A DNA stretch of 64,000 bases from an uncultured Eubacteriaceae bacterium (GTDB taxonomy: Bacteria; Bacillota; Clostridia; Lachnospirales; CAG-274), in the NCBI GenBank assembly GCA_947086655.1, contig CAMTZM010000003.1, forward strand, positions 62,001 through 126,000, in the 5' to 3' direction. Below, piece after piece: positions 13,287 to 58,369 of the stretch (position 1 is its first letter; each line of letters begins with the position of its first letter). A program made the position numbers and the translations under genes. The notes beneath the pieces were generated by a model. It made no database searches, had not been told where the DNA came from, and was given only the letters and a program-made list of their open reading frames with translations.

Positions 13287-13476
13287 ACAGATTTTTTATA
13301 ATTGTTATATGTGTATATATATTTGTGCAAAAAATAGAATGTATGTTAAATTTATTGCTTTTTATTTTTAAAATGATATAATTATTATATATTATAAACA
13401 AACAATGTGTTTATTTTTATATTTTTCAATGTAAAAATATTTCGCATTTAGCTATGAAAAAGGAGGAGGCATTTTA

Positions 13477-16400
13477 ATGAATCAAAAAATGAATCGTGTT
13501 TTGGGCTGGCTGCTTGTGTTTACTATGATGTTCACATCTGTTTTTTCAAATTTAACATTTGCAGGCAGCAATGACAGCAATGAAAATTTATTGGGGGGGG
13601 GTACTTTTCCGCAGGCAGATTCCCTCACAACAGATGCAGCAGTTGAGGTCGGAAAGACTTATGAATACAGCCTTGTAAAAGGGGCTGATGAAGACGGGCT
13701 TGCTATTCAAAATTCAGGACAGGAAGTTGACCCTACAAAAGTAGGAGAAGTACATGGAATAAAAGTTGACGCATCTGCTCCGGGAGCAAAATTTGACAAT
13801 GTGAACAGAGCTTCTAACGGAGATTCTCAGGTTACAAAAGGAGTAGTTTTGGGTGTTCCTGTAAATGGAAAAAGCACAATAACTATTGTAGGATATCAAG
13901 ATATTGAAATAGGAATTACAGATAAGGAAGAACCGGCTTATGCCGATAAGGAGACTATTTCATGCGGAGGCGGATGGACACCTCAGAGTATTACTTATTA
14001 TGGAAAAAGTGAAAGTTATGTATATTTAGAGATAAGAAATAGTACATATATCAAAAAAATAACAGTTGTTTCAGACGGAGTACAGGAAGAAGAAACAAAA
14101 GTTTGGGAAAAAAGGGATTTTAATCTTACTATAAACGGTACTGTTGTAACAGTTACAGGAGCTGAAAATATATTTTCAGAACCTACTATAACATTAAGCG
14201 ATAACGACGGCACTTCAATAGAGTCAAAAACGGCTGAATCAGCATCATTAAAGCTTAATTTAGGCGGAGCTGTAACTAATGATACTATTACTGATATTAG
14301 TTCTTCAATAACAGCGGCTTTAAATGAAAGCGGACAGATAGTTGTTACATTTAAAGATGCTAAGGTTAAACCGTATACTTTTACATTTACTGTTGGAAAT
14401 ACATATGAGAAAAAGCAATTTTCTTTTGATTTTAACGGAGAGGGCAAAACTGTTTCTGTTGAGACAGGAGCAAAGCCTACGGATATTCCCGAAGTAGCTT
14501 TAGCAGAAGGAATGACAGGAGAGGTTATTAATAAAGAACTTAATAAAGCTACACTTGTTGTAGATTTAGCTGGAGCAGAACTTGCCGAAAGTATGATTAC
14601 GAAATTGACTGATAAATATACGGCAGCAGTTGAAGGAAATGCAATTAAGTTTACTTACACTGAAAGTGATGGTTCTTTATGGACATATACTCTTAATGTT
14701 GTTGACAGCAGTGTTAATGTAATGCCTGAAAAAGGCAAAACATATACTTATATATTCTCGGATGGTTCTATTGTTCCGAAAGATACTGAAACACCGATTA
14801 ATACCATAGTTTCAGAAGATATGTTTCTTACTATAAACGGAAACGGAACAATGAAATATAATAACGGCGGAGGCGTTTCACACGGTGTAGCCGTTTATGA
14901 TGGAAATTCATTTGAAGTTAAGGTAGCCGGAGATGCTATTATAACATTTAATTGCTGTATGTATAGTGGAAGCGGGTCTTCTGTTGAGTCTTCCGTAAAG
15001 ACAGGTACAGGTACTTTCAATGCTGAAAGCGTTGATATAGCTGGTACTGCCGGAGGAGGAACAAAAGGCGAAGGAGAAGCTGCAACATTTGTTTATACAG
15101 GAGAAGCTGCTGATTTATTGTTTACGGTAAAAGGCGCTGGTTTTATACATGGAATGAGTGTACAAAATCTTGACAATAAACCTGTTGAAGATAATGGCAA
15201 AATTGATGTTTGGGATTTTGGCGCTTACGCTTTAGATGCAGAAAAATATAACAATTTACTTGATGTAGATACTATTAACAGCTGGTATGCTGATACTATT
15301 GTAAAAGGTTCGGCAGGAAATGTTTTTGCTGTTCCTACATTTACAGCAGGAGATTTAACATGGAATACAACGGCTGTAAATAACAGATTAAGAACGACAA
15401 ATAAGGATCTTACACGTTATGACGAGGGAACAAGTGCATCAAGCATAAAAGGATTTAATTGTACAGAACTTAATATTAACGGCTGTATTTATATTAATTC
15501 AGCAGCCGGAGGCGGAAGTTTTACAATAAATACTAAAAAAGACGATGTTGTATATGTATATGTTAAAATGGATAATGAAAACGATGTAATTAATTTTGCA
15601 AAAGCTGGAGCTATTGAGCCTACTGCACAGATAGCGGCTTCAACTGATGGCAGCATAGTTAAGTTTATTGTTCCAGAGGATGGTATATATACAATTTCTG
15701 ATGGCACCGTAGGCGGCGGAAAGCCAAGATATTACAGAATAATAAGAGAACATGCTAAATATGTAAACTTGACAGGTACTGTTACAGCAGCAGAAGGCAT
15801 ACCGGAAAATTACAGCATTATTTTTAGAAATATAGAAACAGGAGCAGAAACAGAGGCTATACCGGAAGATGGAAATTATGTTATTACAGTAGCAGCCGGA
15901 TATACTTATCAGGCAAGACTTGCAAATGCTGAGGGATTTAGAATATCAGAAGGCGTTGAGGTTAAAGTTGATGATGCGGCGGTTAATAATATAAAAATAG
16001 ACGCTGTTACTTATAGAACTGTTTCAGGAAGTTTTACAGGTTTTGAGGAAAGTTTTGATATGACTAATGTTGAAATTTATTTCCAGCCTGTTGATGAGCT
16101 TGAAAAGTTGAGTTATGGAAAAGTGTCTATTGAAATTACTGAAGGAAAATACAGTGCTAAGTTTGCCGATAATGTTGAGTATGAAATGGTAATGGAAGGC
16201 GCTAACGATTATGAAATAAAATCAGGCAATACTGTAATAAAGGTTACAGAAGATACTACAAATGATATATCTGTTGCGAAAAAAGCTGTTTATGATGTTA
16301 CAGGCAAGTTTGTAACTTATGATGAAAAACCGATAAATGTAAGCGCAATTAAGTTTAAAAATCTTGATGATGATTATGTTTATGACGGTGTTGTAGCTGA

Positions 16401-17925
16401 AGACGGATACAGCGTTAAGCTTAGAGAAGGAAATTATGAGGTTGTTATTGAAACAGAGGACGCTTATAATTCAGCATCGCATGTAGTTGTAACTACCGAA
16501 GCTGTTAAAAAAGACATTTTATTTATGCCAAAAACTGCGGCTGAAGTTGCTTACGCTAAAGATGTTTATGTAGGAGTTCCGGAACAGGAAAATAATTATG
16601 AAACTGTTAAAGACGCTATTGAGGCTGTAAACAATATGAATCCTAAGCCTACAAATGAAAGCGAGAGAATTACTATACATGTTGCTCCAGGTGTATACAG
16701 AGCTCAGCATATACTTAAAACTCCTTATGTATCAATAGTAAGTACAGACCCTTCACAAGAAGTTAAACTTACATGGTATTATGGAATTGGCTATAAATAT
16801 TACAGCGCTGGTTCAAACGGATATTATAATGAATTAAATGCTTTTGACAAATTCCTTAAAAACGGAAAAACAGAAAAGAAAACAGGAAATGTAGATCGTT
16901 GGGGCGGAGCATTTCAGCTTCAAAGTACTGCTAATGATTTTTACGCTGAAAATATTACATTTGAAAACTCATTTAATAAATATGTTACCGAAGAGGAAAT
17001 ACTTGATGGAGTAGAGCCAAGCGGTGCAGAATCAATTAATTTTGACAGAACTAAAGAAGGAGTTGACGTTTATTCAAAGGCAGCAACAGAAAGAGCAGCA
17101 GCAATGATTGCAGAAGCTGATAACGCTGAGTTTTATAGATGTTCATTCCTTTCAAGTCAAGATACGCTTTATATAAATCCATCAATAAAACAATACTATA
17201 AAGAATGTTTTATTGAAGGTATGACAGACTATATATTCGGAGACGGTCAAGTTGCATTTGAAGATTGTACGCTTAATTTCTGCGGATACAGTGACAGTAC
17301 CACAGGCGGATATGTTACGGCTACAAGATGGGATCAAGGCGGTTTAGGATATATATTCAAAAATTGTAAAGTTACAAGTTCAAGCGATAAAAGTGTTGGA
17401 ACAGGACATTTTGGACGTCCATGGGGCGCTACTTCAAGAGTATATTTTATGAATACAACAATTGAGAAAACAGGGCTTATTAATAATGAAGGTTTTTCTG
17501 ATTGGGGAAATGTTTTGGCATTAAAAGCAAACTATCATGAATACGGTTCAAAATATGCTAACGGAGATGCTGTTGACACATCAAAAAGAAAATGTAAAGT
17601 AATGACTTTAGAAGAAGCTAATCAGATTAAAATTAAAGATTGGTTTGGAGATTGGACTCCTAAAAATTATGTAGATAATGATGATGAAGATGATGATAAA
17701 GACATTATATATGGCGATATAAATAATGATAGAAAGATTACTGCTTTAGACGCTGCTATTGTTCTTCAGTACTGCAATAATAAAGCTGAATATACGCTTA
17801 CAGACAAACAGTTAAAGGCTGCTGATGTAGATGGTTCAGAAGGAATTAGTTATAATGATGTAAGCTTAATTTTGGATAAAGCGCTTAATTATGACACTGT
17901 ATTACCTTTTGAGAGTGTAAATTAA
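13477..17925 (+). CDS. Secreted multidomain pectinesterase (CE8) with C-terminal dockerin and a G9 tract
   Basis: A 1482-residue exported pectin methylesterase that removes methyl groups from homogalacturonan. The order is signal peptide (about 1-29), two diverged beta-rich repeats around 210-410, further carbohydrate-binding-like beta modules, prealbumin-like segments (VTGTVTAAEG), a CE8 beta-helix at about 1023-1395, and a type I dockerin at 1413-1475. The catalytic set is visible: Q1228 and D1229 (QDTLY), D1251 (TDYIFGD), R1314 and W1316 (GRPWG). A run of nine G bases at 13593-13601 (codons 39-42) lies just after the signal peptide; slippage there would switch the gene off. The start is ATG behind AAGGAGGAGG. 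A strong terminator follows. Confidence 0.93.
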   Translation: MNQKMNRVLGWLLVFTMMFTSVFSNLTFAGSNDSNENLLGGGTFPQADSLTTDAAVEVGKTYEYSLVKGADEDGLAIQNSGQEVDPTKVGEVHGIKVDASAPGAKFDNVNRASNGDSQVTKGVVLGVPVNGKSTITIVGYQDIEIGITDKEEPAYADKETISCGGGWTPQSITYYGKSESYVYLEIRNSTYIKKITVVSDGVQEEETKVWEKRDFNLTINGTVVTVTGAENIFSEPTITLSDNDGTSIESKTAESASLKLNLGGAVTNDTITDISSSITAALNESGQIVVTFKDAKVKPYTFTFTVGNTYEKKQFSFDFNGEGKTVSVETGAKPTDIPEVALAEGMTGEVINKELNKATLVVDLAGAELAESMITKLTDKYTAAVEGNAIKFTYTESDGSLWTYTLNVVDSSVNVMPEKGKTYTYIFSDGSIVPKDTETPINTIVSEDMFLTINGNGTMKYNNGGGVSHGVAVYDGNSFEVKVAGDAIITFNCCMYSGSGSSVESSVKTGTGTFNAESVDIAGTAGGGTKGEGEAATFVYTGEAADLLFTVKGAGFIHGMSVQNLDNKPVEDNGKIDVWDFGAYALDAEKYNNLLDVDTINSWYADTIVKGSAGNVFAVPTFTAGDLTWNTTAVNNRLRTTNKDLTRYDEGTSASSIKGFNCTELNINGCIYINSAAGGGSFTINTKKDDVVYVYVKMDNENDVINFAKAGAIEPTAQIAASTDGSIVKFIVPEDGIYTISDGTVGGGKPRYYRIIREHAKYVNLTGTVTAAEGIPENYSIIFRNIETGAETEAIPEDGNYVITVAAGYTYQARLANAEGFRISEGVEVKVDDAAVNNIKIDAVTYRTVSGSFTGFEESFDMTNVEIYFQPVDELEKLSYGKVSIEITEGKYSAKFADNVEYEMVMEGANDYEIKSGNTVIKVTEDTTNDISVAKKAVYDVTGKFVTYDEKPINVSAIKFKNLDDDYVYDGVVAEDGYSVKLREGNYEVVIETEDAYNSASHVVVTTEAVKKDILFMPKTAAEVAYAKDVYVGVPEQENNYETVKDAIEAVNNMNPKPTNESERITIHVAPGVYRAQHILKTPYVSIVSTDPSQEVKLTWYYGIGYKYYSAGSNGYYNELNAFDKFLKNGKTEKKTGNVDRWGGAFQLQSTANDFYAENITFENSFNKYVTEEEILDGVEPSGAESINFDRTKEGVDVYSKAATERAAAMIAEADNAEFYRCSFLSSQDTLYINPSIKQYYKECFIEGMTDYIFGDGQVAFEDCTLNFCGYSDSTTGGYVTATRWDQGGLGYIFKNCKVTSSSDKSVGTGHFGRPWGATSRVYFMNTTIEKTGLINNEGFSDWGNVLALKANYHEYGSKYANGDAVDTSKRKCKVMTLEEANQIKIKDWFGDWTPKNYVDNDDEDDDKDIIYGDINNDRKITALDAAIVLQYCNNKAEYTLTDKQLKAADVDGSEGISYNDVSLILDKALNYDTVLPFESVN
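13593..13601 (+). repeat. Homopolymeric G9 tract inside the pectinesterase gene
   Basis: Nine consecutive G bases in an AT-rich genome, encoding the Gly run after residue 38. This is the classic substrate for slipped-strand mispairing. As read here the frame is open. Confidence 0.9.
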
Positions 17926-55867: not shown

Positions 55868-58369
55868 ATGAGGAAAATAACCGCTAAGATTTTTTTGTCA
55901 GTATTGTCAAGTGCAATAGCTATATTGATGGTTATTTCTAATTTTTCGGTATATGGTGCACAAAATTCAGATAAAAAAATCAAAAAAACTATTACAGTAG
56001 GTAAAAACAGTGAATTTACAAGTATACAGGCTGCGCTTGATTCTGTAAATTTTACTCCTGATGAAAAAAATCCTTTGACTATAAAAATTAAAAAAGGATT
56101 TTATGAAGAGCCTGTCACTGTTAATTTGCCTTATGTAAAGTTTGTAAATGCCGATAGTGATAGACCGGAAGACGTTATAATATCATATGACAAAGCAAAT
56201 GACCACGAAGACCCAAAAAAGAAATTTGGAACACAGCAGTCAGCAACTGTTACTATAAATAATACAGCAGAGGGATTTAGTGCGGAGAATATCACTATTC
56301 AAAATTCTTTTAACCTAAATCAGCCTAATTTAGGGCTTGACGGCGGAAGAAATCAGACACAGGCAGTAGCTCTTGTAACGATGACAGACAAAGTTATTTT
56401 AAAAAACTGTCATTTTTTAGGACGTCAGGATACTTTATATTTAAAAGGGGCGTCTAAGGGTTCTAATGTATACGGCGATGTTAATAATGCAAGGGTTTAT
56501 GTAAAGGATTGTTATATAGAAGGTACAGTCGATTATATATTCGGAGATGCGACGGCATATTTTGATAATTGTGATTTGAATATGGCTTTTTATAAAAACG
56601 GCGGGCATTATACTGCTGCAAACACAACTCTTTTTAATACAGGTTATGTATTTAACAACTGTCGTCTTACAGTAGATAAAAAGTATTTTTCATATACAGG
56701 CGAAAATAAAAAAAATATAGATTTAGGCAGACCATGGCAGGGAGATAATACATATCCTAATTATGGTTCTCATACAGTTTTTATAAATTGTGTTATGCCT
56801 GATTATTTAAAAAGCGATGGTTTTAGTGTATGGAATACAAATACTGTCAGTGAAAAAATAAGATATATGGAATATGGCTCTGTAAATGAGAAAGGTGAAA
56901 AAATTAATTTGTCAATACGTCCGGATTGGATTATAAAGCTTACAGATAAACAGGCTGAAAATTATAATGTATATAATGTTTTAAGAGGGGACGACGGCTG
57001 GAATCCGGCAAAAGCAGAAAATACAGATACGCCTGTTTTAGCAACAGGAATTACTCTTGACAAATATAACATTGAAATACCAAAAGGCGAAAGCGATGCT
57101 ATAAAAGCGTTTGTTGTTCCTTACAACGCTGAAAACAGAAAATACAGTTTTGTATCGTCTGATGAAAGTATTGTTACAGTTGACGGAGATGGAAATATTA
57201 AAGCAGTTTCACAAGGGGACGCTTATGTTGAGGCAATAGCGTCAGATAGTGGTTTTAAGGTGCGTGTAAATATAAAAGCGCTTGCTCAAAGAACAGTTCC
57301 TCCGGAAGTTGAGAGCATAAGCATAAAAACACCTAAGTCCGAGGTTTATCCTGAAGATGTAATAACAGGAGTATACAGCTATAAAAATGGACTTGATACA
57401 GCTATTGATTGTGCTAAGGTACGTTTTGTTGCTGTAAATCCGGAAACAGGCGAAGAAATTCTTTTACAGGAAGGCAGAGAGGATTTTGACAGGCAATACA
57501 AAGTTAAGGCGGCAGATATAGGATATAAAATCCGTTTTGAAGTTTTGCCGGAAACTGATACAAGCTATGGAGATAAAGGTGAAAGGGCTGTTTGTGAGAC
57601 AGCAAATGTTTTAACGCCTGATTTTTACGTTCCTAAAACGTATTTAAGAGAAGGATTCAGCGATTTTTATACAGAAAAATATGTTGATGAAAATACCGAT
57701 AAATATCCTGAAAATCCAAAAGCCGATGTTTTATGGAAAGGTTCAGGAGATTTAGGAGATGAGGTTGTACCGAGTATAAATGTTATTACAGAAGACGGAA
57801 ATGACATGATTGCCGGTGCAAGTCAGTCAGGTTCTTTTATGGAATATATTCCTAAAGATAATGAAAAAGCGTGGGGCAATATATCCCTTGAGGCGAGAAT
57901 GAGATTTAATCCAACTGCCGGAGGTTTTGCATCAAATAATTATTTTAATATATATACATCTTACGATAGTGAAAATGATTCATATTATAAGCTGCAAATA
58001 GGCAGAGGAGGAAACACAAATTCTTTAAAGCTTTATCTTTATAAAAAGGATAAAGATAAAGAGGAAGTTCTTGTAGCTAAAGACGAAGAAAGTTTAAACG
58101 GTATTGTTCCTCAAAACGCCGGAGAAAATAACCCGTGGTTTAGAGTTAATATAAAAAATGCTGATGGAAGAATTACTGTTTCATTTAGACTTGAGTCAAG
58201 TACAAACAATAATTGTGTTATGACGTATAATGATAAAGAACCATTAGAAGGCTTTACAGCTATTGAAAGCTATGGCAAGGTTTCTGTACTGCTTGTTGAC
58301 AGTATTCTTATTGAAGAATGTATTGACAGCGGTATTCAGATACAAAATCCGAAAGCTGCGTTAAAATAA
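55868..58369 (+). CDS. Secreted pectinesterase (CE8) with Big2 and C-terminal beta domains
   Basis: An 833-residue exported pectin methylesterase. A signal peptide (about 1-29) is followed by a CE8 beta-helix at about 40-385: Q187 and D188 (QDTLY), D222 (VDYIFGD), R288 and W290 (GRPWQ). A Big2-type Ig-like domain (about 395-480, ITLDKYNIEIPKGESDAI) and a further beta domain follow, then a LamG-like C-terminus (about 600-820). It lacks the dockerin of the other two CE8 proteins and is more distant from them. The start is ATG behind TAAGGAGG. An 8-bp hairpin (58356-58374) overlaps the stop, and an amino-acid transport gene follows after 31 bp. Confidence 0.94.
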   Translation: MRKITAKIFLSVLSSAIAILMVISNFSVYGAQNSDKKIKKTITVGKNSEFTSIQAALDSVNFTPDEKNPLTIKIKKGFYEEPVTVNLPYVKFVNADSDRPEDVIISYDKANDHEDPKKKFGTQQSATVTINNTAEGFSAENITIQNSFNLNQPNLGLDGGRNQTQAVALVTMTDKVILKNCHFLGRQDTLYLKGASKGSNVYGDVNNARVYVKDCYIEGTVDYIFGDATAYFDNCDLNMAFYKNGGHYTAANTTLFNTGYVFNNCRLTVDKKYFSYTGENKKNIDLGRPWQGDNTYPNYGSHTVFINCVMPDYLKSDGFSVWNTNTVSEKIRYMEYGSVNEKGEKINLSIRPDWIIKLTDKQAENYNVYNVLRGDDGWNPAKAENTDTPVLATGITLDKYNIEIPKGESDAIKAFVVPYNAENRKYSFVSSDESIVTVDGDGNIKAVSQGDAYVEAIASDSGFKVRVNIKALAQRTVPPEVESISIKTPKSEVYPEDVITGVYSYKNGLDTAIDCAKVRFVAVNPETGEEILLQEGREDFDRQYKVKAADIGYKIRFEVLPETDTSYGDKGERAVCETANVLTPDFYVPKTYLREGFSDFYTEKYVDENTDKYPENPKADVLWKGSGDLGDEVVPSINVITEDGNDMIAGASQSGSFMEYIPKDNEKAWGNISLEARMRFNPTAGGFASNNYFNIYTSYDSENDSYYKLQIGRGGNTNSLKLYLYKKDKDKEEVLVAKDEESLNGIVPQNAGENNPWFRVNIKNADGRITVSFRLESSTNNNCVMTYNDKEPLEGFTAIESYGKVSVLLVDSILIEECIDSGIQIQNPKAALK

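Follow-up and report, generated by a model that had tools for sequence, protein, structure and literature searches.

Homopolymeric tracts as known or putative phase-variable switches

Discussions of phase variation by slippage usually turn on the surface structures of pathogens, which face immunity and phages. In Campylobacter, 53% of poly-G tracts are nine bases long and 26% are ten, many of these tracts are proven switches, and runs of at least eight Gs are known to be mutable (PMC6321876). In the gut commensal Bifidobacterium breve, slippage at an intragenic G tract decides whether the full-length product of a sortase-dependent pilus is made, as demonstrated by deep sequencing (PMC9187656). 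Slipped-strand variation has also been ascribed to an enzyme, the Gardnerella sialidase NanH3 (Kurukulasuriya 2021, as cited in PMC11868660). In Bacteroides, the SusC/SusD glycan-uptake genes vary by invertase-driven DNA inversion (PMC11868660).

The locus considered here lies in a 64,000-nt stretch of DNA (the window) and consists of nine consecutive G bases (G9) within the gene of a secreted pectinesterase. This tract is probably a contingency-locus switch operated by slipped-strand slippage during replication, one of about twenty such tracts in the genome.

A G9 tract behind the signal peptide of a pectinesterase

The features of the locus are as follows.

13460..13469, + strand: Shine-Dalgarno-like AAGGAGGAGG, just 5' of the ATG at 13477 (from the sequence)
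13477..17925, + strand: secreted pectinesterase with C-terminal type I dockerin, 1482 aa, intact and in the ON (open) frame (from the ORF, Pfam and homology)
13477..13566, + strand: signal-peptide region, ~30 codons (from the translation; end placed by eye)
13593..13601, + strand: G9 homopolymeric tract, putative slipped-strand switch (from the sequence, codons 39-42)
17080..17589, + strand: pectinesterase catalytic domain stretch, residues 1202-1371 (Pfam PF01095)
17710..17871, + strand: dockerin type I domain, residues 1412-1465 (Pfam)

The 1482-residue protein matches the Pectinesterase family PF01095 with an E value of 3.4e-28 and 98.7 bits, against a curated cut-off of 27, and it also matches solved pectinesterases (5c1c, E 6e-22). 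The family motifs SSQDT (1226), DYIFGDG (1251) and FGRPWG (1312) are present, and we take these to be the catalytic Gln/Asp, Asp and Arg motifs of CE8 pectinesterases. By its sequence, the protein is identified as a pectinesterase (CE8, PF01095) with its catalytic motifs kept. The window holds a further pectinesterase, with a Big_2 domain and without any poly-G tract, at 55868-58369 on the + strand.

The G9 tract spans codons 39-42 just behind the signal peptide, where a previous sequence-only reading had placed it, and is in frame with the long ORF. Its first G is the third base of codon 39 (TTG, Leu) and its last falls within codon 42 (GGT). It is the longest run of G or C in the window and the sole one above five, while an order-1 model expects 0.026 runs of at least nine Gs per window. 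The locus has two features of a contingency locus, a homopolymer of at least eight Gs inside a reading frame and a product that is abolished when the tract changes by one unit. Both other frames after the tract reach a stop, 14 or 24 residues on, which bears out the earlier claim that gain or loss of a G leaves little but the signal peptide. Of the internal in-frame starts within the first 400 codons, one alone has a Shine-Dalgarno-like site, the TTG of codon 125, and a protein begun there would have no signal peptide.

In the proposed mechanism, replication slippage would add or remove a G and thus shift the frame directly after the signal peptide. With nine Gs, or nine plus or minus three, the full pectinesterase-dockerin would be made and secreted; with eight or ten, only a peptide of about 55-66 residues would result. 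That the tract slips in living cells, together with its slip rate, its reversibility and any benefit of switching, we infer throughout.

Long G runs across the genome

The window's own genome (G000; 2.79 Mb in 96 contigs, AT-rich) is the only one analysed of its species and genus. From six upwards, the exact run lengths derived from counts of overlapping matches are six (36 G runs), seven (3), eight (6), nine (12) and ten (4), and no run exceeds ten. This distribution is bimodal, with its second peak at nine. Runs of eight to ten number 22, where decay from the shorter runs would predict about 2-3 (P below 1e-11 against geometric decay), an excess of tracts over chance of the kind that marks contingency loci. 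The G9 tract is not a chance run. A G7 inside the pectinesterase gene of contig C5 fits the chance tail and was left out of the tract count. For some relatives (G017 and others), raw counts of poly-G were set aside on account of runs at contig ends.

A run that exceeds chance may still simply encode Gly-Gly-Gly in a fixed linker behind the signal peptide and leave this gene unswitched, even if other tracts switch. The region is indeed a poorly conserved linker, in some relatives one that contains glycine. The gene is also in frame, and this ON state counts against the switch reading, because a fixed sequence would show the same. However, GGG is the rarest glycine codon in the window's genes (6.6% of glycine codons), so that a glycine linker does not explain the G9 run, and nine Gs without a synonymous break would be improbable. 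The length also falls on the genome's own peak at nine, and silence is hard to expect given the known mutability of runs of at least eight Gs (PMC6321876). A fixed linker is on this evidence unlikely.

The sequence next to the tracts shows a regularity of its own. Of 67 G tracts of at least eight, 41 have TA immediately after them (14 of 22 in the window's own genome, 27 of 45 in relatives), compared with about 8% for runs of G4-G5 (p about 3e-24), and across 118 Clostridia genomes G9TA is far commoner than the mirrored ATG9. A -10 box accounts for only some of these cases. Three genomes of another family of the class (G087, G121 and G175; f41 g53) carry 9-13 G9TA sites each, with the mirrored control almost nil, and by this sequence pattern their genus is a probable further Clostridia poly-G phasome.

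Sibling tracts in ON and OFF genes

Seven poly-G tracts occur within C31:11750-21813 (loci L033 and L034), among PglD-like, polysaccharide-deacetylase and heparinase-II/III-like paralogues of a gene cluster that probably serves a surface glycan. Three of these genes are OFF, broken exactly at the tract, beside four intact ON genes. When the intact paralogues were used in tblastn, two copies showed residues 1-34 and 29-587 in different frames, with the switch at the tract and 92% identity to the intact paralogue over the long part, and the third gene likewise changes frame at its tract. Judged from these frames, the array looks like a combinatorial surface-glycan switch. On contig C59, a radical-SAM gene is split at a G9, which parts the radical-SAM domain from its SPASM domain. 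An HsdS specificity gene on C22 is apparently broken by a frame change at a G9, as read from the translation, its N-terminal part having no Pfam match. Sibling loci thus stand in both ON and OFF frames (C31, and also C59 and C22), as contingency loci do. With about twenty further tracts and several genes in the OFF frame, the earlier proposal of a candidate phase-variable locus is credible.

Other tracts lie outside reading frames. On C4, a G9 makes up half of the 18-bp spacer in TTGACT-N18-TATAAT, 5' of a gene for a 1845-aa BspA-LRR surface protein. By sequence and by analogy with Campylobacter, the tracts on C31, C59, C22 and C4 can be said to occupy the usual places of slippage switches. 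The poly-G set would act partly by intragenic frameshift and partly by altering promoter -35/-10 spacing, and its putative targets are surface glycans, restriction specificity, surface proteins and pectin enzymes. Some tracts have no obvious effect (for example C3:159309, or the one upstream of an ftsL-like gene on C53), and these count against the switch reading.

Additional observations concern single loci. A MerR-type regulator gene, itself followed by a P-type ATPase, has a G9 at C6:77870 (L027 7866-8684) that sets in at its likely start codon, where the ATG runs directly into the Gs. The G10 at C53:2238-2247 (L035) is near the Shine-Dalgarno position of the ftsL/DivIC-like gene, which lies between mraW and a penicillin-binding protein. 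A second HsdS-like gene contains about 13 units of the tetranucleotide (CAGA), seen at C22:39504-39555 and C66:4-47, both contig ends, which are probably one locus where the assembly broke; from its sequence, this appears as a second type of slippage repeat in the genome.

Homopolymers can be slippery to the polymerase or the ribosome. Slippage at the G tract during transcription or translation would then yield a constant mixture of frames and tune the dose without genetic switching. This general slipperiness speaks for it, but the intact frame is already present, and slippage would only lower output; moreover, it cannot explain tracts in promoter spacers, and OFF copies exist at the tracts. 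These points make it highly improbable for the G9 tract. Slightly less probable still is a sequencing or assembly artefact, be it a different true length or poly-G from two-colour sequencing chemistry: poly-G at contig ends in at least one relative (G017 C23, C87) looks artefactual and one tract of the present genome (C11:54) is near a contig end, but the G9 tract, like most others, is embedded in a long contig and in a gene, no tract is longer than ten, and the reading frame stays open over 1482 residues.

Pectin enzymes among the tract-bearing genes

The sequence-only reading had advised a scan for poly-G at other pectinase genes, and such tracts were found both in this genome and in relatives. 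The second pectinesterase-dockerin gene of the genome, on C29, has a G10 65 bp upstream of its ATG, in the promoter or leader. In relative G004, a GDSL-pectinesterase of 1899 residues is preceded by a G11 in the spacer between TTGCTT and TATGAT. Secreted pectate-lyase-like orthologues in G004 and G008 both have a G9 between the TTGACA and TATAAT of their promoter; the promoter core is identical and the upstream DNA has diverged. The spacer of these promoters is 14 bp, shorter than the usual 17, which leaves their ON length ambiguous and counts against the switch reading. G008 has another G9, at 165 bp upstream of a gene for a pectate lyase-CBM77-dockerin protein. Outside the family, a pectinesterase of the Lachnospiraceae (L141), with an open frame of 2409 residues, carries an in-frame G9 right after the signal peptide, just like the window gene.

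Across 79 loci, pectinesterase genes show a weak enrichment of tracts of eight or more Gs in their N-terminal parts (2 of 7 tracts, p 0.016). Dockerin genes account for 2 of 16 tract loci of the window's own genome (p 0.01), or 3 of 16 when a sub-threshold dockerin is included (p 0.0005), both values assuming 2500 genes. A search for a conserved tract in the orthologues of the window pectinesterase found none. In the full-length orthologue that is closest (53%, G026), the tract is missing at this place; the switch is thus not conserved there, which counts against it, and tracts seem to be gained lineage by lineage.

This G026 orthologue (L050, on C159) is itself split into two frames near residue 455-467, with no G run, which is either a sequencing error or a real break. 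In another relative, G016, an Eco57I-type methylase gene is out of frame at a G9 tract (C39, L107). Treponema sp. RGIG8974 has a G9 between TTGACT and TATAGT with a spacer of 16 (L158 2503-2511, - strand), on a contig that also carries a pectinesterase.

A broader proposal assigns a poly-G phasome to the gut Clostridia of the family, with plant-pectin-degrading enzymes (pectinesterases and pectate lyases, often with dockerins) as a recurrent target. A frameshift behind the signal peptide in some genes, and a change in promoter spacing in others, would then give clonal mixtures of makers and non-makers of costly pectin enzymes. We consider the chances of this proposal to be evenly balanced.

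Possible consequences and comparison with known systems

The genome has about 22-25 dockerin and 2-3 cohesin matches, and a dockerin on the enzyme together with cohesins in the genome is an arrangement of the cellulosome type. These matches suggest that the enzyme may sit in a complex rather than be freely shared. The public-good reading of the earlier note, in which sub-populations would share or withhold a costly enzyme, is conceivable but weakened by the dockerin. If fibre-degrading enzymes of gut Clostridia are indeed switched in this manner, G counts from metagenomic reads would offer a direct test of division of labour or cheating over polysaccharide breakdown, and surveys that score fibre-degrading capacity by gene presence would overlook genes in the OFF state.

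The titles and abstracts searched, which cover few subscription journals, described no switch of this kind for pectin or other plant-fibre enzymes, glycoside hydrolases or Lachnospiraceae, which is weak evidence of novelty. The mechanism is already known; the target class, pectin enzymes, and the Clostridia lineage are new to the literature searched. The earlier remark, which was aware of no phase variation for a carbohydrate-degrading enzyme of this group, needs a correction: NanH3 is a precedent among glycan-degrading enzymes, and glycan-uptake genes of Bacteroides switch by inversion. As described in the citing article (PMC11868660), NanH3 is, like the proposed case of the window pectinesterase, a glycan-degrading enzyme switched by slippage at a simple repeat. 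It acts on sialic acid and not on plant pectin, and is an unrelated enzyme from an unrelated phylum. The Bacteroides system varies glycan use in gut bacteria, as the window locus would, through inversion instead of slippage and in uptake proteins instead of secreted enzymes (PMC11868660). With B. breve, the locus shares a gut commensal host and an intragenic G tract at which slippage would decide on the full-length product, although the target there is a pilus and not a polysaccharide-degrading enzyme (PMC9187656). Unlike the Campylobacter phasome, the set described here, known from the sequence of one genome, belongs to a Clostridia gut lineage and includes pectin-degrading, dockerin-bearing enzymes; like it, it combines intragenic and intergenic tracts of G8-G10 with a peak at nine, a prominence of surface-glycan and modification genes, and a mixture of ON and OFF states (PMC6321876).
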